Source of the DNA: Moesziomyces globuligerus
Taxonomy: Eukaryota > Basidiomycota > Ustilaginomycetes > Ustilaginales > Ustilaginaceae
NCBI GenBank assembly: GCA_030849465.1
Contig: JARVLF010000012.1
Location: 587,302 to 651,301 of the forward strand
Direction: 5' to 3'
DNA length: 64,000 nt
The notes under the pieces are model-generated. The model did no database searches. It was not told where the DNA came from and was given only the letters and a program-made list of their open reading frames with translations. Below, in pieces: positions 51,441 through 64,000 of this stretch; position 1 is the stretch's first letter, and each line of letters starts with the position of its first letter. Position numbers and translations under genes: made by a program.

Positions 51441-51989
51441 TTCCAGATCCTTTTATCGGCAGGTTCCCAAATTCTGGACGCGGTTGCTCCCCCCTCCACC
51501 CTGAGGCAAGACGGGCCATTTCAAAATTCTGGCGCGCTGAATTTTGAGGGAGGACAGTCTGCTTCAAAAATCAAGACGGTCCACTTCAAAAATGGAGACG
51601 GTCCACTACAGTCAGAGAGACATTCTGCTTCAAAAATGGAGACGGTCCACTACAGTCAGAGAGACAGTCCACTTCAAAAATGGAGACGGTCCACCACAGT
51701 CAGAGAGACAGTCCACTACAGTTGGTGAGACAGTCAGCTACAAAAGGGAGACCGTCAAGGTCAAGCAGCAGAGACGTGCACCCATCAACATCCATAACAT
51801 CACCCATTTCCCTCCGCCTGCCAACATGTCACGGATAACCTGCCCTGTTTGCAGTCTCTCCTATGCGGCAACAAACATCACCAATCATTTGCGCAAGGCG
51901 CACAGCGGTGCACACATCAGCCAGCAGGCAGCTGCTGCTTTTGTGCTGGTGGTATGCCCGTGCGGCCAGGTGGTGTTGAATGCTGCAGC
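51441..51989 (+). mobile_element. 3'-truncated copy (copy A) of the subtelomeric element
   Basis: Colinear with the first part of copy B (52002 to about 52536). Both begin TTCCAGATCCTTTT, then share TTGGACGCG/TCTGGACGCG, the block of short tandem repeats, the leader AAAAGGGAGACCGTCAAGG and the start of ORF1. The copy stops inside ORF1 at AATGCTGCAGC and the next bases are TTAGGGTTAGGG, so its break is capped by telomere repeat rather than by the rest of the element. Confidence 0.8.
51540..51770 (+). repeat. Short tandem repeats, upstream of ORF1, copy A
   Basis: Repeated phrases of about 20-40 bp combining CTTCAAAAATGGAGACGG and TCCACTACAGTCAGAGAGAC, with some degenerate units. They lie just before the ORF1 start and recur in copy B, so they belong to the element and may be its promoter or a protein-binding array. 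Confidence 0.75.
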
Positions 51990-51993
51990 TTAG
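51826..51993 (+). pseudogene. Truncated copy of element ORF1
   Basis: Reads 55 codons from ATG: the first C2H2 finger (CPVCSLSYAATNITNHLRKA) and the beginning of the second (CPCGQVVLNAAA), then meets an in-frame TAG formed by the telomere repeat (GCT TAG GG). Compared with the full gene at 52375 it has several substitutions but no frameshift. It ends at residue 55 of 938, so it can hardly be functional; a short zinc-finger peptide is conceivable. Confidence 0.75.
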
Positions 51994-52001
51994 GGTTAGG
52001 G
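51990..52001 (+). repeat. Interstitial telomere repeat (TTAGGG)2
   Basis: Two TTAGGG units exactly between the truncated end of copy A and the first base of copy B (TTCCAGATCC). Same orientation as the chromosome-end repeats. Confidence 0.85.
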
Positions 52002-52079
52002 TTCCAGATCCTTTTGACGGTGGGTTTCCAACTTTTGGACGCGCTCGGCATCCAGCGGTCCCTGGTCTGCCCTCATGGA

Positions 52080-52300
52080 AGACGGTCCAATTCAAAAATC
52101 TGACGCGTTGAATTTCACAGGAAGACAGTCTGCTTCAAAAATCAAGACGGTCTGCTTCAAAAATCAAGACGGTCCACTTCAGAAATAAAGACGGTCTGCT
52201 TCAAAAATGGAGACGGTCCACTACAGTCAGAGAGACAGTCCGCTACAGTCAGAGAGACGGTCAGCTACAGTCAGAGAGACGGTCAGCTACAAAAGGGAGA
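52080..52300 (+). repeat. Short tandem repeats, upstream of ORF1, copy B
   Basis: Units built from CTTCAAAAATCAAGACGGTC, ACTACAGTCAGAGAGAC and GGTCAGCTACAGTCAGAGAG in head-to-tail order. The number and order of units differ from copy A, as expected for an unstable array. Confidence 0.75.
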
Positions 52301-52374
52301 CCGTCAAGGACAAGTAGCAGAGATGTGCACCCGTCAATGCCCATCACATCACCCACTCCCCTCCGCCAGCCAAT

Positions 52375-55191
52375 ATGTCACGGACAACCTGCCCTGTTTG
52401 CGGTCTCTCCTATGCGGCAACAAACATCACCAATCATTTGCGCAAGGCGCACAGCGGTGCACACGTCAGCCAGGAGGCTGCTGCTGCTGTTGGGCTGGTG
52501 GCATGCCCGTGCGGCCAGGTGGTGGTGAATGCTGCGGCACTGCTCAAGCACCAGGGCATCCGTAAGTGCCAGGGTGTACGGTCCCAGCCCACAGCAGCAG
52601 CAGCTGCAGCAGCAGAAGATTTTGCTCCAGCACAGTCAGAATCAGCACCGGCAGAGCAGGCAGCAGCTGTCATTGTGGCAGCTGCGTCAGCGCTGGCGCA
52701 GGCTCTGGCCCCGCTGCCGCCTCCAAGTGCAAGCCCAGCACCCGTGCACACAGCATCACCGTCCTGCAGCTCACCACTGGCCCCGGAGGCAACAGGCACG
52801 GAGGCAGATGTGGAGGAGGAGAATTTCCAGGAAATTGACGCGTCTTCTGGTCTGGTGCCCAGCCTGCCTCTGAGCCCAATCTTGGATTTTCCAGCGGCAA
52901 CACACGTCTCTGATTCTGAGTGGGAGCCAGATGTGGATCCAGAGCCAGAGTCTGGGCAAGACAGAGACGGAGACAGAGACGGACTGGAGATGGACATTTC
53001 CCTGGAAATTGACGCGTCTCCTGGTCTTGTGCCCAGCCTATCTCCACATGGACCTGACACCAACATGGACTCTGACCAGGAGTTGGATGGAGAAGAAGAC
53101 GGAGAGACGCTACCGTACCTTCCCCAAGAAGGACCTGCGGCACCAACACAAGCACGTCCCCAGCATATGCTAGAGCTGCAAGATGTTCAAGACATGCCAG
53201 CAGACGGTATTGTGGTACTGCTGCCTGCTCTTGACACCGCTGAGGAGGAGGCAGAAGCACCGTCTGCACCCCAGCTGGTGCTGGACACAGGGGAGCAGCT
53301 TCCAGAACTCCCGCCTATCCCAGCCATGGCACCAATTTCCAACTGGGACGTGCCTGTCCACACGGATGTGGACTCCTTTGCGGTGACAATTTCTCCTGCC
53401 AGCATGCTGCAGATTTTTCCAGCTGGCTGCTACGCGTCCTTGATCAGCCATGCACCTGATTTCAAGGACATGCACGTCTTTGACAATTGGGTCTATTTTG
53501 CCGAGCTCAAGGTGGTCTTCCGCTTTGAACCGCAGTTCAAGCTCCCCCTTGTAGCACGGCTGCAGGGACCGCCACAACACGCCATCCTTGTCCCCTCTGA
53601 ACACGCCAAGACGCTCACCTTTGGAGAGCTGCGGGTGGAGATCAGCATCCTGGTGGAGGCACTGCAGGACATAGGCTGCCAGAGTGTACGCATGGGTGCG
53701 TACGGCTTCAAGGTGCCCATCCACCGCTTCCTGGATCCAGCTGCGCTAGCAGAGCATCCAATGCAGGTGTTCAATGTGTTTGACATTGGCTGCACGGTGG
53801 ACACAGGCCACGTCACGCTGCTTGCACCCAAAACAAAGAAGGGCGGCTACAAGCAGTATCCCAGCGCTCTGCGCATTGGCCGTGGTTTTGGCAGTGTGGA
53901 GCTGCGGTGGACTCACCGTGCAGATGGAATTTCCCATTTCAAGGCATATTCCAAACTCACGCACCTGCTCAAAGCCGGAGCAGCAGGTGCCGGGCAGGGA
54001 GGTCAGCCGATGATCATGAAGACGGTGAAAGACCGCATTGCCACACTGCAGAGGTGGAAAGAGCGCGTCTCTGGCACAGCACCAGAGGTGGGCAGCGGCA
54101 TCCGGCTGGAGCTCACCGTGCAAGCGGCCACCATGCAGCAGGCGCAGCAAGTGGCAAAGGCAAGCCGCTTCCTTGATCCACGCTACCTGTTCACCGCACA
54201 AGCAGGAGTGCAGCAGCTGCTGACGCACACCATCAAGAAAGAAGACATGTTCAGGGATCTTGACGTGCTGCTTGCTGTTGCAGAGCAGAAGCAGCTCTTC
54301 CGGGGCAACAGCAGCAAGCAGTCCACACGGCTGCAGCGGCAAGCCGTGGTGGACCTGTACAATGCAATGGGTTGGCATCCAGGCAGACGGCCCACAGCGC
54401 TGGACAGTCCCACCGCATGGTGGGTGTCCAACCAAGCTGCGGTGGATCTGGCGCAAGAGCTGGAGCGGTTCAGCACGCCCAAGCGGACCAAGAATTTGTT
54501 TGGGCACATTCAAATCCACCTGCGGTGCCAGGGTTGCCGGCGCGTGGGCACGTACATCCTCTGTGGAGGTGCCCATCAGTTCCGCATTCGCTGCACTGAG
54601 TGCCGAGCCACCCTTGGCGCGCAGAAATTCCGCATGCACATTGCCACGCTGGCATTCAACCGGCAGCTGGGCGTTGACCTCAGCACACTCATTGTGGATC
54701 CAGCACGGCTGCTGTTTGCAAGCATACCTGCAGACCAAGCTGTCCGCAAGCTCAGCCAGCGGAGGGACCTCAGCGGTCTTGTCCGCACGCATGAGTTTGC
54801 CAGCATGCGCGAGTCCATGCTGGAGTGCCTCTCCTTTGCGTTGGAAGATCAACACGGTGGGCCAGGTCCCATTGAGATCCAGGAGGCAGCAACAGACTGG
54901 CTGCGGGACAACACTCTGGCAGTGGAGCATCACATTGGTGCACGGAGCAGGGTTGCCGTCCATGCCTGCATCAACAAGCTGGCTGTGCGTGATGCAGAGC
55001 TCAGCACGGAGGAGGAGGTCTTGCTGCTGCACGGTGTGGCAGGTGCGTTCAACACTCACATTGCCCACCTCATGCTTCTGCGCAGAGCGTGGTCCTGCCA
55101 GGTCATTCCGGTTGGCGGCGTTGGGCCATATGTGGGCCTTGTCAAGCTTATGGGTGATGGATATGAGGTGCTGACACACTCTAGGCAGTAG
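52375..55191 (+). CDS. Element ORF1: zinc-finger protein of unknown family
   Basis: 938 aa, single exon. I do not recognise the family. N-terminus: a C2H2 finger (C6, C9, H21, H26) followed by a second metal site of CxC...H...C type (C44, C46, H59, C65). Residues about 75-310 are low-complexity Ala/Gln/Pro then acidic with repeated FQEIDASSGLVPSL/LEIDASPGLVPSL phrases. The rest looks folded: FGELRVEISILVEAL, RGFGSVELRWTHRADGISHF and SGIRLELTVQAATMQQAQQV, then a zinc-ribbon-like quartet C718/C721...C740/C743 (CQGC...CTEC), and a helical C-terminus. No catalytic motif of a known transposase, reverse transcriptase or recombinase is visible; a DNA-binding role is likely from the zinc sites. Upstream tandem repeats and the partial copy at 51826 show it belongs to the element. 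Confidence 0.75.
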   Translation: MSRTTCPVCGLSYAATNITNHLRKAHSGAHVSQEAAAAVGLVACPCGQVVVNAAALLKHQGIRKCQGVRSQPTAAAAAAAEDFAPAQSESAPAEQAAAVIVAAASALAQALAPLPPPSASPAPVHTASPSCSSPLAPEATGTEADVEEENFQEIDASSGLVPSLPLSPILDFPAATHVSDSEWEPDVDPEPESGQDRDGDRDGLEMDISLEIDASPGLVPSLSPHGPDTNMDSDQELDGEEDGETLPYLPQEGPAAPTQARPQHMLELQDVQDMPADGIVVLLPALDTAEEEAEAPSAPQLVLDTGEQLPELPPIPAMAPISNWDVPVHTDVDSFAVTISPASMLQIFPAGCYASLISHAPDFKDMHVFDNWVYFAELKVVFRFEPQFKLPLVARLQGPPQHAILVPSEHAKTLTFGELRVEISILVEALQDIGCQSVRMGAYGFKVPIHRFLDPAALAEHPMQVFNVFDIGCTVDTGHVTLLAPKTKKGGYKQYPSALRIGRGFGSVELRWTHRADGISHFKAYSKLTHLLKAGAAGAGQGGQPMIMKTVKDRIATLQRWKERVSGTAPEVGSGIRLELTVQAATMQQAQQVAKASRFLDPRYLFTAQAGVQQLLTHTIKKEDMFRDLDVLLAVAEQKQLFRGNSSKQSTRLQRQAVVDLYNAMGWHPGRRPTALDSPTAWWVSNQAAVDLAQELERFSTPKRTKNLFGHIQIHLRCQGCRRVGTYILCGGAHQFRIRCTECRATLGAQKFRMHIATLAFNRQLGVDLSTLIVDPARLLFASIPADQAVRKLSQRRDLSGLVRTHEFASMRESMLECLSFALEDQHGGPGPIEIQEAATDWLRDNTLAVEHHIGARSRVAVHACINKLAVRDAELSTEEEVLLLHGVAGAFNTHIAHLMLLRRAWSCQVIPVGGVGPYVGLVKLMGDGYEVLTHSRQ

Positions 55192-55254
55192 GAGAATATC
55201 ATTTTGTTCACGTGTGTTTGTGCAAGCTGAACAGTGGTCCGGGTGAGCTGGATG

Positions 55255-55501
55255 AGAGCTGGGGGTACCGTGTCCAAATTTTCATTTTGGCAGGGGAAGT
55301 TGGAATTTTGAGGCGGTACCCCCAATGGGCACGCTCTTTCCAGGTGGAGGGGGTACCGCGTCAAAATTTTCACTTTGGCTCGGGAAAGTTGAGTTTGGAG
55401 GCGGTACCCCCAGATGGGCGCGCTCTTTCCAGGTGGAGGGGGTACCGCGTCAAAATTTTCACTTTGGCTCAGGAAAGTTGAGTTTGGAGACGGGACCCCC
55501 G
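55255..55501 (+). repeat. Three tandem repeats (about 89 bp) upstream of ORF2
   Basis: Each unit carries GGGGGTACCGCGTCAAAATTT, CACTTTGGCTC, AGTTGAGTTTGGAGGCGGTA and GGCGCGCTCTTTCCAGGTGG-like blocks (first unit diverged). Copies begin near 55255, 55326 and 55415. GGTACC with flanking G and C runs can form short inverted repeats. Position suggests the ORF2 promoter. Confidence 0.75.
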
Positions 55502-55521
55502 TCTCCACTCCATCCGTCAAC

Positions 55522-56502
55522 ATGCCAGCAAAAACACCTGAAGCAATTGCCCGCAAGAAGACGGCAAGGAAGGTCCGTGAAGCAGCTCAACGGCAACTAT
55601 ACCAGCAAAGCAAGCAGGAGGAACTTGCAATCACCGTGGATCCCATACCTGGCTGGCAGAAGGAGCACTGGACCGAGGGTACCCAGCTTCAAGTCATCGG
55701 AGAGCCGCAGCCCGGATGTGCTGTTCCCAATCTCACACTCATGGACGGCAGCAACCACAAGGTGATAGTACAACGGCTAGCTCCAACATCCTGGGAAGTG
55801 CATCGGAAGGCAAAAGCTAGCTCCAAGGCGGGCAGGATCCTCCTTGACGCTTATTTGGCCAAGAAGACCACACAGACAGGAAAGGCAACACGGAGTGCCA
55901 TACACAAAAACAAGCGGAACCTGGTCGAGCATCATCTGGGGATCTGGCACAGCCGGGGGGAAGTCAGCCTGGGCTTCACATCTGAGACCACCAACCCCAA
56001 GTACCGTGATGAAGCCTTTGCATTGCTGTGGTGGACAAGGCAGCATGCCGAGCTGGTGCTGACGACACTCAAAGACAAGATCAACACGGACTTTGCAAGT
56101 AGCCTTGCTGCTCGAGCGCCGCACCGCAGGTGGCTAGAGAGCTATTTTGGAAAGAGCACGGAGCTTCTGCATCCGTGGTGGACCACAGTTGCCTTCTTCA
56201 CAGGCTTCCCCTCTGACGGTGGGGTTCACCGTGATGATCTTGACTGCATACCGTCGCTTCTCTTCAACTTTGGAGAGCCGGCATTGCTTGCGCTTCCCCA
56301 GTTTGGAGTCAGCATCAGGGTGGAGCCGCACACCATTCTTGTGCTCAACTCACACACATACTTCCACCGCTCCCTCCAAGCTGGTGGCAATGGGGATGCA
56401 CGGTGGGCATTCAGTGGATTCTTCCGGCAGAGCATCTTCAACGAGAAGCCACTGAGTATCATTGCTGGTGACAGACTAGACGCACTACTAGCAAGCCAGT
56501 AA
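55522..56502 (+). CDS. Element ORF2: putative TET/JBP-like 2OG-Fe(II) dioxygenase
   Basis: 326 aa, single exon. N-terminus basic and helical (KTPEAIARKKTARKVREAAQ), likely nucleic-acid binding or nuclear. The C-terminal half has a double-stranded beta-helix oxygenase pattern: FTGFPSDGGVHRDDLDCIPS with the HxD pair H236/D238, LLFNFGEPALLALPQFGVSI and the strand VEPHTILVLNSHTYFHRSL with a distal His (H278 or H282), then ARWAFSGFFRQS with a candidate 2-oxoglutarate Arg (R294 or R302). The NFG...LPQ...H order resembles fungal TET/JBP proteins, which oxidise 5-methylcytosine or thymine and are often carried by basidiomycete transposons. The frame also has an ATG at 55414 inside the repeats; 55522 is preferred. 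Family assignment is by eye. Confidence 0.65.
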   Translation: MPAKTPEAIARKKTARKVREAAQRQLYQQSKQEELAITVDPIPGWQKEHWTEGTQLQVIGEPQPGCAVPNLTLMDGSNHKVIVQRLAPTSWEVHRKAKASSKAGRILLDAYLAKKTTQTGKATRSAIHKNKRNLVEHHLGIWHSRGEVSLGFTSETTNPKYRDEAFALLWWTRQHAELVLTTLKDKINTDFASSLAARAPHRRWLESYFGKSTELLHPWWTTVAFFTGFPSDGGVHRDDLDCIPSLLFNFGEPALLALPQFGVSIRVEPHTILVLNSHTYFHRSLQAGGNGDARWAFSGFFRQSIFNEKPLSIIAGDRLDALLASQ

Positions 56503-56564
56503 CAGCAGCAAACCAGTTTGGTGAACCAGGTTGGCCAGCAGACCGTGGTCCAATCATCAAACCC

Positions 56565-57074
56565 AGGTGCGTTTTTAAACTCGCCGAGCAAAGAGCCTGT
56601 CCAGGTGCGTTTTTAAACTCGCCTAGCAAAGAGCCTGTCCAGGTGCGTTTTTAAACTCGCCTAGCAAAGAGGGTTACCAGGCGGTTTTTAAACTCGCCTA
56701 GCAAAGAGCCTGTCCAGGCGGGTTTTTAAACCTGCCTGGCAGCACAATGGCTGTTTGGTCAATTGGACTAAGGTCTGCTGGCCATGTCCAGGTAGGTTAG
56801 CGCCTGTCCAGGTGGGTTTTTAAACTCGCCAAGCAAAGAGCCTGTCCAGGTGGGTTTTTAAACTTGCCAAGCAAAGAGCCTGTCCAGGTGGGTTTTTAAA
56901 CCTGCCTGGCAGCACAATGGCTGTTTGGTCAATTGGACTAAGGTCTGCTGGCCATGTCCAGGTAGGTTAGTGCCTGTCCAGGTGGGTTTTAAACTTGCCA
57001 AGCAAAGAGCCTGTCCAGGTGCGTTTTTAAACTCGCCTAGCAAAGAGGGTTACCAGGCGGTTTTTAAACTCGCC
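56565..57074 (+). repeat. Terminal tandem array with TTTAAA palindromes
   Basis: About a dozen units of roughly 38 bp: CAGGTGCGTTTTTAAACTCG followed by CCTAGCAAAGAGCCTGTC. Variants read GGTTTTTAAACCTGCC, a near-perfect palindrome. Two longer interspersed units contain CACAATGGCTGTTTGGTCAA and CTGGCCATGTCCAGGTAGGT (near 56720-56800 and 56890-56970), so there is a higher-order duplication. It lies between ORF2 and the telomere block and forms the element's right end; it could be a terminator, binding array or end-recognition site. Confidence 0.75.
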
Positions 57075-57079
57075 TTGGG

Positions 57080-57139
57080 TTAGGGTTAGGGTTAGGGTTA
57101 GGGTTAGGGTTAGGGTTAGGGTTAGGGTTAGGGTTAGGG
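57080..57139 (+). repeat. Interstitial telomere repeat (TTAGGG)10
   Basis: Ten uninterrupted TTAGGG units (preceded by TTGGG), joining the right end of the element to the satellite. G-rich strand towards the right, as at the end of the window. Confidence 0.95.
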
Positions 57140-57140
57140 T

Positions 57141-60100
57141 TCAAGGTGCGCGCCCTTGGGGTTGGGATTTGACCACCTCTTTTTATGATGTTTATAGGTT
57201 CTTTAGGTCCCATTGAGCATATTCCTTGCTGAACCCCACTCAAGTTTATCAGTAGGTTGCGGAGATATGAGCCAAAGAAATTGCCGGGTGGCAAAACGGG
57301 GTCTTCAAAAAGTGCTTGGATCTTGCCAGTGTCTTAATGAAAGATGCTTATAATGCTGAAAGAAGGCTGTATGCAAAGTTTCAGGAAGGTAGTCAAGGGG
57401 TCATGGAGGTATGCCAGCTCCTAGGGTTAGGGTTAGGGTTAGGGGGGGTTTTACAAGGTGCGCCCCTTGGGGGTGGGGTACAAACATGTCTTGGGGTCTT
57501 AAGTAAACTTGGGTTAGGGTAGGGTTACAAGGTGCGCCCCTTGGGGTTGGGATTTGACCACTTTTTATGGGGTTACAAGGTGCGCCCCTTGGGGTTGGGA
57601 TTTGACCACCTCTTTTTATGATGTTTATAGGTTCTTTAGGTCCCATTGAGCATATTCCTTGCTGAACCCCACTCAAGTTTATCAGTAGGTTGCGGAGATA
57701 TGAGCCAAAGAAATTGGCCGGTGGCAAAACGGGGTCTTCAAAAAGTGCTTGGATCTTGCCAGTGTCCTTAATGAAAGATGCTATAATGCTGAAAGAAGGC
57801 TGTATGCAAAGTTTCAGGAAGGTAGGTCAAGGGTCATGGAGGTATGCCAGCTCCTAGGGTTTGGGTTAGGGTTAGGTAGGGGGGGGGGGTTACAAGGTGC
57901 GCCCCTTGGGGGTGGGGTACAAACATGTCTTGGGGTCTTAAGTAAACTTGGGTTAGGGTTAGGGTTACAAGGTGCGCCCCTTGGGGTTGGGATTTGACCA
58001 CCTCTTTTTATGGGTTTCAAGGTGCGCCCCTTGGGGTTGGGATTTGAAACCTCTTTTTATGATGTTTATAGGTTCTTTAGGTCCCATTGAGCATATTCCT
58101 TGCTGAAACCCCACTCAAGTTTATCAGTAGGTTGCGGAGATATGAGCCAAAGAAATTTGGCCGGGTGGCAAAACGGGGTCTTCAAAAAAGTGCTTGGTTT
58201 TGCCAGTGTCTGTAATGAAAGATGCTTATAATGCTGAAAGAAGGCTGTATGCAAAGTTTCAGGATGGTAGGTCAAGGGGTCATGGAGGATGCCAGCTCCT
58301 AGGGTTAGGGTTAGGGTTAGGTAGGGGGGGGGGGTTACAAGGTGCGCCCCTTGGGGGTGGGTACAAACATGTTGGGGTCTTAAGTTACTTGGGTTAGGGT
58401 TAGGGTTACAAGGTGCGCCCCTTGGGGTTTGGGATTTGACCCACCTCTTTTTATGGGGTTACAAGGTGCGCCCCTTGGGGTTGGATTTGACCACCTCTTT
58501 TTATGATGTTTATAGGTTCTTTAGGTCCCATTGAGCATATTCCTTGCTGAACCCCACTCAAGTTTATCAGTAGGTTGCGGAGATATGAGCCAAGAAATTG
58601 GCCGGGTGCAAAACGGGGTCTTCAAAAAGTGCTTGGATCTTGCCAGTGTCTTAATGAAAGATGCTTATAATGCTGAAAGAAGGCTGTATGCAAAGTTTCA
58701 GGGTAGGTCAAGGGGTCATGGAGGTATGCCAGCTCCTGGGTTAGGTTAGGGTTAGGGTAGGGGGTTACAAGGTGCGCCTTGGGGAGGTGGCAAACATGTC
58801 TTGGGGTCTTAAGTAAACTTGGGTTAGGTTTGACATGGTGCGACCTTGTTTGGGATTGCCACCCATTTTAATGGGTTTACAAGGTGCGCCTTTTGGGATT
58901 TGACCACCTATTTTTAGATGTTTATAGGTTTTGTTAGGTCCCATTGAGCATTTCCTGCGGAACCCCACTCAAGTTTATCAGTTGGTTGCGGTTTGTGAGC
59001 CAAAGCCTTGGCCGGGGTGGCAACGGGGTCACAAAAGTGCTTGGATCTTGTGTGTCTATGAGATGCATTCTGAAGGCTTTTGCAGTTTCAGGAAGGGGTC
59101 AAGTGATGGGGTATCAGCGCCTAGGGTTGGGGGCACCCTGTACATGAGTCACAGCCGGGTTTACAAGGTGCGCTGTGGTGGGATGCTGAGGGTGTGGTGG
59201 GGTCAAGTTAGCTTTTCACTAGAGGTACAAGGTGCGCCCCTTGGGGTTGGGATTTGACCACCTCATGGGTCAAGGTCGCCCATGGGTTGGGATTTGACCA
59301 CCTCTTTTATGATGTATAGTTTCTTTAGGTCCCAATTAGCCTATTCCTTGCTGAACCCCACTCAATTTATCAGTGATTGCGGAGATATGAGCCAAAGAAA
59401 TTGCCGGGTGGCAAAACTGTGTCTTCAAAGGGCTTGTTTTTGCAGTGTCTTGCAGAGCATAAAATGCTGAAAGAGGTGTATGCAAAGTTTCAGGAAGGTA
59501 GGTCAGGGGTCATGGAGGTATGCCAGCTCCTAGTTAGGGTTAGGTTAGGGGTTACAAGTTGCGCCCCTTGGGGGTGGGTACAAACATGTCTTGGGGTCTA
59601 AAGTAAACTTGTAGGTTTAGGGTTACAAGGTGCGCCCCTTGGGGTTGGGATTTGACCACCATCTTTTTATGGGGTTACAAGGTGCGCCCCTTGGGTTTGG
59701 GATTTGACCACCTCTTTTTATGATGTATATAGGTTCTTTAGGTCCCATTGAGCATATTCCTTGCTGAACCCCACTCAAGTTTATCAGGATGCGGAGATAT
59801 GAGCCAAAGAAATTTGGCCGGGTGGCAAAACGGGGTCTTCAAAAAGTGCTTGGATCTTGCCAGTGTCTTAATGAAAGATGCTTATAATGCTGAAAGAAGG
59901 CTGTATGCAAAGTTTCAGGAAGGTAGGTCAAGGGGTCATGGAGGTATGCCAGCTCCTAGGTTAGGGGTTAGGGTTAGGTAGGGGGGGGTTACAAGGTGCG
60001 CCCCTTGGGGGTGGGGTACAAACATGTCTTGGGGTCTTAAGTAAACTTGGGTTAGGGTTAGGGTTACAAGGTGCGCCCCTTGGGGTTGGATTTGACCACC

Positions 60101-63100
60101 TCTTTTTATGGGGTTACAAGGTGCGCCCCTTGGGGTTGGGATTTGACCACCTCTTTTTATGATGTTTATAGGTTCTTTAGGTCCCCATTGAGCATATTCC
60201 TTGCTGAACCCCACTCAAGTGTATCAGTAGGTTGCGGAGATAAGAGCCAAATAAATTTGGCCGGGTGGCAAAACGGGGTCTTCAAAATGTGCTTGGATCT
60301 TGCCAGTGTCTTAATGAAAGATGTTATAATGCTGAAAGAAGGCTGTATGCAAAGTTTCAGGAAGGTAGGTCAAGGTCATGGAGGTAAGCCAGCTCCTAGG
60401 GTTAGGGGTAGGTTAGGTAGGGGGGGGGGGTTACAAGGTGCGCCCCTTGGGGTGGGGTACAAACATTTCTTGGTCTTAAGGAAACTTGGGTTAGGGTTAG
60501 GGTTACAAGGTGCGCCCCTTGGGGTTGGGATTTGACCACCTCTTTTTATGGGGTTACAAGGTGCGCCCCTTGGGGTTGGGATTTGACCACCTCTTTTTAT
60601 GATGTTTATAGGTTCTTTAGGTCCCATTGAGCATATTCCTTGCTGAACCCCACTCAAGTTTATCAGTAGGTTGCGGAGATATGAGCCAAAGAAATTTGGC
60701 CGGGTGGCAAAACGGGGTCTTCAAAAAGTGCTTGGCTCTTGCCAGTGTCTTAATGAAAGATGCTATAATGCTGAAAGAAGGCTGTATGCAAAGTTTCAGG
60801 AAGGTAGGTCAAGGGTCATGGAGGTATGCCAGCTCCAAGGGTTAGGGTTAGGTTAGGTAGGGGGGGGGGTGACAAGGTGCGCCCTTTGGGGTACAAACAT
60901 GTCTTGGGGTCTTAAGTAAACTTGGGTTAGGGTTACGGTTACAAGGTGCGCCCCTTGGGTTGGGATTTGACCACCTCTTTTTATGGGTTACAAGGTGCGC
61001 CCCTTGGGGTTGGGATTTGACCACCTCTTTTTATGATGTTTATAGGTTCTTTAGGTCCCATTGAGCATATTCCTTGCTGAACCCCACTCAAGTTTATCAG
61101 TAGGTTGCGGAGATGAGCCAAAGAAATTTGGCCGGGTGGCAAAACGGGTCTTCAAAAAGTGCTTGGATCTTGCCAGTGTCTTAATGAAAGATGCTTATAA
61201 TGCTGAAAGAAGGCTGTATGCAAAGTTTCAGGAAGGTAGGTCAAGGGGTCATGGAGGTATGCCAGCTCCTAGGGTTAGGGTTAGGGTTAGGTAGGGGGGG
61301 GGGGTTACAAGGTGCGCCCCTTGGGGGTGGGGTACAAACATGTCTTGGGGTCTTAAGTAAAACTTAGTGTTAGGGTTAGGGTTACAAGGTGCGCCCCTTG
61401 GGGTTGGGATTTGACCACCTCTATGGGGTTACAAGGTGCGCCCCATGGGTTGGGATTTGACCACCTCTTTTTATGATGTTTATAGGTTCTTTAGGTCCCA
61501 TTGAGCATATTCCTTGCTGAACCCCACTCAAGTTTATCAGTAGGTTGCGGAGATATGAGCCAAAGAAATTTGGCCGGGTGGCAAAACGGGGTCTTCAAAA
61601 AGTGCTTGGATCTTGCCAGTGTCTTAATGAAAGATGCTTATAATGCTGAAAGAAGGCTGTATGCAAAGTTTCAGGAAGGTAGGTCAAGGGGTCATGGAGG
61701 TATGCCAGCTCCTAGGGTTAGGGTTAGGGTTTGGAAGGGGGGTGGGGTTACAAGGTGCGCCCCTTGGGGGTGGGGTACAAACATGTCTTGGGGTCTTATG
61801 TAACTTGGGTTAGGGTTAGGGTTACAAGGTGCGCCCCTTGGGGTTGGGATTTGACCACCTCTTTTTATGGGGTTACAAGGTGCGCCCCTTGGGGTTGGGA
61901 TTTGACCACCTCTTTTTATGATGTTTATAGGTTCTTTAGGACCCATTGAGCATATTCCCTTGCTGAACCCCACTCAAGATTATCAGTAGGTTGCGGAGAT
62001 ATGAGCCAAAGAAATTTGGCCGGGTGGCAAAACGGGTCTTCAAAAAGTGCTTGGATCTTGCCAGTGTCTTAATGAAAGATGCTTATAATGCTGAAAGAAG
62101 GCTGTATGCAAAGTTTCAGGAAGGTAGGTCAAGGGGTCATGGAGGTATGCCAGCTCCTAGGGTTAGGGTTAGGGTTAGGTAGGGGGGGGGGGTTACAAGG
62201 TGCGCCCTTGGGGGTGGGGTACAAACATGTCTTGGGGTCTTAAGTAAACTTGGGTTAGGGTTAGGGTTACAAGGTGCGCCCCTTGGGTTGGGATTTGACC
62301 ACCTCTTTTTATGGGGTTACAAGGTGCGCCCCTTGGGGTTGGGATTTGACCACCTCTTTTTATGATGTTTATAGGTTCTTTAGGTCCCATTGAGCATATT
62401 CCTTGCTGAACCCCACTCAAGTTTATCAGTAGGTTGCGGAGATATGAGCCAAAGAAATTTGGCCGGGGTGGCAAAACGGGGTCTTCAAAAAGTGCTTGGA
62501 TCTTGCCAGTGTCTTAATGAAAGATGCTTATAATGCTGAAAGAAGGCTGTATGCAAAGTTTCAGGAAGGTAGGTCAAGGGGTCATGGAGGTATGCCAGCT
62601 CCTAGGGTTAGGGTTAGGGTTAGGTAGGGGGGGGGGTTACAAGGTGCGCCCCTTGGGGGTGGGGTACAAACATGTCTTGGGGTCTTAAGTAAACTTGGGT
62701 TAGGGTTAGGGTTACAAGGTGCGCCCTTGGGGTTGGGATTTGACCACCACTTTTTATGGGGTTACAAGGTGCGCCCCTTAGGGTTGGGATTTGACCACCT
62801 CTTTTTATGATGTTTATAGGTTTCTTTAGGTCCCATTGAGCATATTCCTTGCTGAACCCCACTCAAGTTTATCAGTAGGTTGCGGAGATATGAGCCAAAG
62901 AAATTTGGCCGGGTGGCAATACGGGGTCTTTACAAAAAGTGCTTCGGATCATTGCCAGTGTCTTAATGAAAGATGCTGTTATAATGCTGAAAGAAGGCAT
63001 GTATGCAAAGGTTTTCAGGAAGGTAGGCTCAAGGGGTCAAGGAGGTATGCCAGCTCCTAGGGTTAGGGTTAGGGTTAGGTAGGGGGGGTGGAGGGGTTAC

Positions 63101-63968
63101 AAGGTGCGCCCCTTGGGGGTGGGGTACAAACATGTCTTGGGGTCTTAAGTAAACTTGGGTTAGGGGTTAGGGTGTACAAGGTGCGCTAGCCCTTGGGGTT
63201 GGGATTTGACCACTCTCTTTTTATGGGGTTACAAGGTGCGCCCGCTTGGGGTTGGGATTTGAACCACCTCTTTTTATGATGGTTTATAAGGTTTCTTTAA
63301 GGTCCCATTGTGCATATTTCGCTTGCTGAACCCCACTCAAGTTTATCAGTAGGTTGCGGAGATATGAGCCAAAGAAATTTGGCCGTGTGGTGGCAAAACG
63401 GGGGTCTTCCAAAAAAGTGCTTGGATTCTTGCCCAGTGTCTTAAATGAAAGATGCTTATAATGCTGAAAGAAGGCTGTATGCAAAGTTTCAGGAAGGTAG
63501 GTCAAGGGGGGGGAAGGGGTCATGGAGGTATTGCCAGCTCCTAGGGTTAGGGTTAGGGTTTAAGGTAGGGGGGGGGGGTTACAAGGTAGCGCCCCTTGGG
63601 GGTGGGGTACAAACATGTCTTGGTGGTCTTAAGTAAACTTGGGTTTAGGGTTAGGGTTTTACAAGGTGCGCCCCGCTTGGGTTGGGATTTGACCAGCCTC
63701 TTTTTTATGGGGTTTACAAGGTGCGCCCCTTGGGGTTGGGATTTTGACCACCTCTTTTTATGATGTTATATAGGTTCTTTAGGTCCCTTTGAGCATATTC
63801 CTGTGCTGAACACCCACTCAAGTTTATCAGTAGGTTGCGGAGATATGCAGCCAAAGAAATTTGGCCGGGGTGGCAAAAAACGGGGTCTTCAAAAAAGTGC
63901 TTGGATCTTGCCAGTGTCTTAATGTAAAGATGCTTATAATGCTGAAAGAGGCTGTATGCAAAGTTTCA
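57141..63968 (+). repeat. Subtelomeric satellite, about 16 units of about 440 bp
   Basis: Anchor GATGTTTATAGGTTCTTTAG recurs near 57187, 57620, 58061, 58505, 58917, 59311, 59722, 60161, 60601, 61035, 61475, 61920, 62364, 62809, 63278 and 63762 (some copies with changes). Spacing is mostly 433-445 bp, shorter (394-412) in the diverged units at 58.5-59.7 kb and longer (469-484) in the last two. Each unit contains a twice-repeated sub-unit of about 50 bp (ACAAGGTGCGCCCCTTGGGG then TTGGGATTTGACCACCTC), a poly-G tract and two internal TTAGGG runs. Frames of 60-100 codons occur but break differently from unit to unit, so the array is probably non-coding. Confidence 0.93.
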
Positions 63969-64000
63969 GGGTAGGGTTAGGGATAGGGTTAGGGATAGGG
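63969..64000 (+). repeat. Variant telomere-type repeat at window end
   Basis: Alternating TTAGGG and ATAGGG hexamers directly after a satellite unit truncated at AAGTTTCAGG. May be the inner edge of the true telomere or another internal block; the window stops here. Confidence 0.7.

Follow-up and report, generated by a model that had tools for sequence, protein, structure and literature searches.

The window analysed here, 64,000 bp in length, forms the right-hand end of C12, a contig of 651,301 bp in the 18.5-Mb, 24-contig genome of Moesziomyces globuligerus, so the unit at 52002..57076 lies 6.9 kb from an assembled chromosome end. This unit is a full-length telomere-linked element on the forward strand, as are all of the parts described here. 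It begins with TTCCAGATCC at 52002, directly after a (TTAGGG)2 junction tract (51990..52001), and the inner side of this tract adjoins an older, truncated copy (51441..51986) that runs from the left end to a break early in ORF1 and is 83% identical to q1-534 of the unit. Within the unit, non-coding DNA on the left holds 22-bp tandem repeats (52122..52291) and is followed by ORF1 (52375..55191; 938 aa from its ATG), 89-bp tandem repeats (55261..55500), ORF2 (55522..56502; 326 aa) and a right tail of 38-bp and 170-bp tandem repeats (56563..57075). Past the right terminus (~57076), TTAGGG is repeated 10.8 times (57077..57141). The sequence TTAGGGTTAGGG was counted 29 times in the window (maximum over 100 shuffles, 0). 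The initial annotation had described a two-gene unit with telomere repeats at both borders, and this description was confirmed, with both ORFs open. A 445-bp satellite with TTAGGG within every unit occupies 57137-63970, between the element and the contig end.

The absence of a reverse transcriptase, a RecQ helicase and a known transposase, also proposed in that annotation, holds as far as the profile searches reach: no such domain was found in either ORF with Pfam and NCBIfam, or in ORF1 with PHROGs, and the genome-wide RVT_1 and RecQ searches agreed. ORF1 could be assigned to no known family using Pfam, PHROGs, NCBIfam and PDB sequence profiles, which returned only stray sub-threshold matches (zinc fingers, OrsD and others); the OrsD match was weak and came from one of 12 ORF1 relatives (E 0.53). 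A tblastn search of phages and plasmids with residues 320-700 gave nothing solid. The AlphaFold model has a mean pLDDT of 40.9, too poor for a fold search, and therefore we make no fold claim for ORF1. Its YxK...RxE pattern might bring rolling-circle Rep proteins to mind, but we claim no such likeness. Ten relatives were found, then 12 by profile, including proteins from Ustilago trichophora, Ustilago sp. UG-2017a/b and Kalmanozyma brasiliensis. A longest contig of 4,724 bp is listed for the ORF1 relative P0007 and likewise for the ORF2 relative P0014, a hint that the two genes may travel as a pair. A diverged ORF1-like gene (C17:12094-13434; 32% identical; 476 aa from its ATG) lacks the N-terminal finger region and lies about 1 kb inside the C17L element in CpG-poor DNA (observed/expected 0.26); it perhaps represents an older related family.

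ORF2 is predicted to adopt the double-stranded beta-helix fold of TET/JBP-type Fe(II)/2-oxoglutarate dioxygenases. Foldseek comparison of the ORF2 model with TET structures gave moderate TM-scores of about 0.4-0.57, and the ORF2 alignment profile matched NgTET1 (E 0.011); a phmmer search of the PDB with the single sequence gave 0 matches, so that TET proteins were reached only by the alignment profile and the model. H236, D238, H282 and R294 are invariant across 10 aligned ORF2 sequences, and from knowledge of the family we take this HxD...H motif and distal arginine to be the metal and 2-oxoglutarate ligands. Nine relatives were found, one of them from U. trichophora; among viral contigs there were 92 pattern matches, none of which was confirmed. 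The genome also contains four internal, diverged ORF2-like (TET-like) genes (C19:661230, C16:626561, C13:635955 and C9:362787). The pieces containing them have CpG observed/expected ratios of 0.85-1.22, and they may therefore be host genes.

Placement and borders of the element family

A search for the exact left terminus, GGGTTCCA[AG]ATCCTTTT (GGG followed directly by TTCCA[G/A]ATCC), returned 56 occurrences in the genome, and the reversed-pattern control returned 0. All 56 are subtelomeric (≤17 kb from a contig end, a zone that makes up 4.4% of the genome) and all face outward, with none internal: the 32 on the minus strand are ≤16.9 kb from a contig start and the 24 on the plus strand are ≤12.0 kb from a contig end. 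They are present at 30 of the 48 contig ends and on 22 of the 24 contigs, and ORF1 matches revealed two further element-bearing ends (C8R and C21L). ORF1 has at least 49 matches in the genome, 48 at 80-100% identity and one relative at 32%, and all of the matches scored lie near contig ends; this count is a lower bound, with 49 of 69 candidates scored, and some copies are counted as two pieces. For ORF2, 20 matches were found, comprising seven full-length copies (98-100%), nine copy pieces and the four diverged internal genes. The locus is thus neither a fixed single-copy gene pair nor one of a set of copies at internal sites. As the initial annotation anticipated, several chromosome ends carry copies with a constant left end, and several copies have TTAGGG at both borders. 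Its proposal that the unit enters or is captured by telomeric DNA in a fixed orientation is supported by the outward direction of every left terminus; mobility in the strict sense is something that we infer, and passive recombination between ends may explain part or all of the distribution.

The 52 left junctions that were readable, at 29 ends, were grouped by a script into 42 breakpoints, counting the neighbouring breakpoints C16L 4880 and C19L 7638 as one group. Junctions of two C15R units, C6L, C20L, one C8L, two C11R and one C22R copy fall outside this set. The first bases are TTCCA[GA]ATCC in 51 of the 52 junctions, the exception being a slightly shortened variant at C17R. An in-register telomere repeat of ≥3 nt precedes the element in 47 of the 52. 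The junction TTAGGG tract (median 8.5 nt) measures 0-27 nt in 47 junctions and 51-63 nt in the other five. The C19R junction has no repeat at all, and at C22R and C10L the join is made by G residues alone. The DNA inward of the junction was classed by script as unrelated in 30 cases, as the element itself in 19 and as satellite in three, with some of the flanks classed as 'other' (C11R, C10L 14336) probably being diverged element DNA. The copies have clearly been acquired many times over. The 445-bp satellite and the TTACATGTGG module, both bounded by TTAGGG, also join copies through partial repeats (C17R, C2L, C14L and C2R); at C17R, for example, the satellite joins a broken copy in this way. 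This mode of joining is therefore not peculiar to the element, which weakens the case for an element-specific machine.

Six copies share a fixed right end at q5074-5075; they lie at four chromosome ends (one each at C12R, C10L and C14L, three at C2L). The remaining copies are truncated at variable points, several of them capped by telomere repeats. Ten of the 29 breaks listed run into TTAGGG (C12L, C17L, C2L e, C16L d/e, C19L c, C5L, C13R, C23L and C15R), and the others continue with the next element, with the satellite or with DNA of another kind. At C1R, C12L, C16L, C19L, C5L, C13R, C23L and C15R, eight ends in all, the outermost copy is truncated or has a rearranged tail and leads into 15-32 TTAGGG repeats that reach the contig end. 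The junctions and truncations together indicate that copies were built up outward, with an end losing its distal part, gaining few or no repeats and then receiving a new copy that starts from its left terminus. C14R and C7R end within broken retroelement pol frames capped directly by TTAGGG (C14:633600-634914 and C7:493900-494610), which is telomere healing in unrelated DNA; TTAGGG capping is thus not special to the element.

CpG depletion, selection and exchange between ends

The CpG observed/expected ratio of the host DNA averages 1.06 (sd 0.07, minimum 0.94; 25 windows of 2 kb) and is 1.05 for the host part of the window overall. It is 0.56 in the element (0.55-0.58 in two windows covering most of it), 0.28 in the 445-bp satellite and 0.26 at the C17 locus with the diverged ORF1. 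Among private C>T changes, 63 of 125 are at CpG, compared with 450 of 2866 C positions in CpG (p 2e-19); without the outlier copy the count is 57 of 103, and C19La alone has 6 of 22, no significant excess. Deamination of 5-methylcytosine is the ordinary cause of CpG-biased C>T change. As read from the mutation pattern, the host probably methylates the element, and such methylation would provide an obvious use for a TET-like enzyme. PF00145, the C5 methyltransferase model, finds matches at two loci of the host (C9:51181-52580 and C19:63493-63981), the latter within a 2443-aa frame.

Both genes are under purifying selection, with pN/pS ratios of 0.32 for ORF1 (14 intact copies) and 0.26 for ORF2 (seven full copies). 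There are 15 complete ORF1 copies, of which C18L, with an in-frame stop, was left out of the pN/pS estimate and counted as broken in the tests of private changes, where each array was represented by one unit. Private changes in intact ORF1 copies numbered 37 synonymous and 39 nonsynonymous, below the neutral expectation (p 5e-6 to 0.002 for transition weights of 1 to 12). The 12 broken copies had 23 synonymous and 50 nonsynonymous changes, with two stops, and were indistinguishable from neutral. The contrast between intact and broken copies is borderline (Fisher p 0.045; 0.051 without C19La, an outlier with 17 private changes per kb; 0.064 without C19La and C9Lx). Selection thus appears to be relaxed in broken copies, again at a borderline level, as expected of a selfish element whose intact copies need their own proteins.

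Tandem copies with interstitial telomere tracts were found at C2L, C15R, C16L and C10L. The C15R array has seven units of 1556 bp, of which the five that are readable wholly or in part are all identical; the C16L array has three 1995-bp units that are 1-3 bases apart; and C2L carries a repeated dimer of internally deleted copies, whose two A units differ by 53 mismatches and 26 gap columns in 4106. Identical arrays such as that at C15R are structures that assemblers can misjudge, but an assembly artefact at repetitive ends is exceedingly improbable as the source of the family, considering that 42 breakpoints at 29 of the 48 ends share one left end and one orientation, that the copies differ with a coherent mutation spectrum and that relatives occur in other species.

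The silent diversity of ORF1 drops toward the chromosome end (Spearman rho -0.84, p 0.002, ten windows; rho -0.38, p 0.25 when a last window of only a few codons is included). Whole-element diversity also falls outward, though unevenly, rising at q3001-3600 and q4501-4800, and the proximal and distal distances between copies have a near-zero correlation (rho 0.17). Truncation at q3910 followed by TTAGGG is common to C2R and C19R, with different modules beyond, and C8L and C17R share a flank, both of which imply copying between ends. Based on the gradient, the uncorrelated distances and this common truncation point and flank, recombination between ends has almost certainly taken part in the history of the element.

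These same observations fit a passive subtelomeric repeat resembling the yeast Y' element, propagated and homogenised between chromosome ends by host processes only (break-induced replication, gene conversion and copying from circles), with ORFs that have no driving part in its spread. The similar joining of non-coding TTAGGG-bounded modules, and arrays of nearly identical truncated units unable to encode whole proteins, would also be expected of such a repeat. Purifying selection on both ORFs and its apparent relaxation in broken copies speak against it, as does one exact start at 42 breakpoints when longer TTAGGG tracts exist elsewhere. Break-induced replication fits the gradient and the shared breakpoints, but junction tracts of 0-27 nt in most cases offer scant homology for ordinary strand invasion. 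We therefore regard a purely passive repeat as a serious but rather unlikely explanation, and favour element-driven end addition over passive recombination between ends as the mechanism of spread.

Spread of the element and comparison with known systems

We class the unit as a new variety of telomere-associated selfish element, a stronger finding than could be seen from the window in the initial annotation. The account that we consider somewhat likelier to be right than wrong is that of a selfish, telomere-confined, protein-coding family whose copies are added to ends that are short or broken, are homogenised through end-directed recombination and carry a TET-like enzyme to counter silencing. 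Such an end, with 0-4 repeats, would take up a new copy starting at the left terminus, by way of G-rich microhomology, with either another end or an extrachromosomal circle as the source that is copied. ORF1 may promote this uptake or tether the copy to telomeric DNA, and ORF2 may oxidise 5-methylcytosine and so relieve host silencing of the element. Distal parts would be lost by breakage or erosion and healed by telomerase, and could be restored by end-directed recombination with other copies. A bolder version, which we hold to be unlikely and somewhat more doubtful than a passive repeat, is a chromosome-end DNA transposon in which ORF1 would recognise or seed TTAGGG ends, one-ended copying would proceed from the left terminus with neither a reverse transcriptase nor a classical transposase, and the TET/JBP enzyme would rewrite a telomere modification (5-methylcytosine or thymine). 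Base J synthesis in kinetoplastids is a precedent for thymine modification.

Among the closest known systems are telomeric non-LTR retrotransposons. As described in the passages available to us, the 5' end of MoTeR elements of Magnaporthe oryzae invariably faces the chromosome end, TTAGGG tracts occupy their inner junctions and break-induced replication extends their arrays (PMC7367193), and FoTeR of Fusarium oxysporum has asymmetric telomeric junctions (PMC12857005). The present element resembles both, as so described, in its confinement to ends, single orientation, short inner TTAGGG tract, distal truncation with telomere capping and tandem arrays, which in MoTeR and FoTeR are shaped by break-induced replication. 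Unlike MoTeR1 and FoTeR, neither ORF has a detectable reverse transcriptase domain; unlike MoTeR as so described, the genes run outward from the inner end, in the direction of the chromosome end; and unlike both, the element encodes a predicted TET/JBP-like enzyme. The resemblance, which includes distal tandem repeats, raises the possibility of a non-autonomous retroelement, related to an autonomous one as MoTeR2 is to MoTeR1, in which a reverse transcriptase acting in trans would copy onto chromosome ends an antisense RNA that terminates at the left terminus, the distal truncations then being 5' truncations. The genome has 37 RVT_1 matches, several of them near contig ends. However, the ORFs would then be antisense to the template, no RVT_1 match overlaps a match to ORF1 or ORF2, those near ends are in mixed orientation, and the pair located right at the contig ends, on C14 and C7, appears by eye to consist of broken LTR-type pol frames without similarity to the element. 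A retroelement origin is accordingly improbable.

Repeated coding families at chromosome ends are also known from smuts. Passages of the literature describe UTASa (RecQ) and UTASb at the chromosome ends of U. maydis (PMC10532341, PMC6167521) and 35 helicase genes at 22 chromosome ends in S. scitamineum (PMC4466345). Like UTASa/UTASb and telomere-linked RecQ helicases (TLH), as far as these passages describe them, the element forms a coding family that recurs at numerous chromosome ends in a smut-type fungus; in contrast to UTASa and TLH, its ORFs have no helicase domain detectable with Pfam or NCBIfam. As to UTASb, an OrsD domain, one of its marks, showed up solely as the weak match noted above for one ORF1 relative. 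The RecQ model TIGR00614 gave 28 matches in the genome, none in the element and only two over the cut-off, both internal; the match nearest an end was weak (C14:14231, 24.7 bits). A telomere-linked helicase in this genome was considered and rejected, as no strong RecQ match lies near a contig end. The yeast Y' element encodes a helicase. The element resembles Y' (described in parts of PMC4192592 and PMC10532341) in its tandem copies, short interstitial telomere tracts and homogenisation toward the end, but differs in encoding two unrelated proteins, with no helicase match in Pfam or NCBIfam.

TET/JBP genes have been reported on fungal DNA transposons (KDZ, Plavaka, IS3EU, Helitron and others) of rusts, mushrooms and Pezizomycetes, where an anti-silencing role was proposed in the portions of PMC12730594 that we drew on. 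In the text of that article, 'ustilag' and 'smut' are absent and 'telomer' occurs only in a reference. The present element is likewise a candidate mobile unit with a predicted TET/JBP-like dioxygenase. This known cargo, together with fixed left and right ends, could suggest that ORF1 is a very diverged transposase with TTAGGG as its insertion target. Unlike those transposons, however, the element is confined to telomeres and matches no known transposase, whether DDE, HUH or other (Pfam and NCBIfam for both ORFs, PHROGs for ORF1). Terminal inverted repeats, a feature of DDE types, were not found either: of 109 inverted pairs, the 25 longest include none that joins the element ends. Moreover, truncated copies start at the left end and then pass into telomere repeats or another module, as in end addition. 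We therefore think a DNA transposon of this kind hardly probable.

In the open-access literature, covered mostly as titles and abstract openings and with subscription journals mostly outside its scope, we found no description of the element, and the portions consulted of reviews on fungal telomeres (PMC8381367) and plant-pathogen epigenetics (PMC10399791) contain nothing on it. The coding telomere elements of fungi in the literature compared, as far as those texts extend, carry a reverse transcriptase or a RecQ helicase, neither of which was found here. Instead, the element pairs a protein without a match to any known family with a putative TET/JBP-like enzyme on DNA bearing the mutational mark of CpG methylation, and faces in the direction opposite to telomeric retrotransposons. 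A small fungal genome whose ends can be read thus makes two questions testable: whether telomeres can be colonised without reverse transcription, and whether selfish elements employ TET enzymes to counter methylation by the host at chromosome ends. Chromosome breakage and repair are in addition recorded in the many ends that have healed. At C18L (C18:3240-3600), a copy is truncated at q3238, where a piece of its own right-end repeats follows directly in inverted orientation and makes a fold-back junction.
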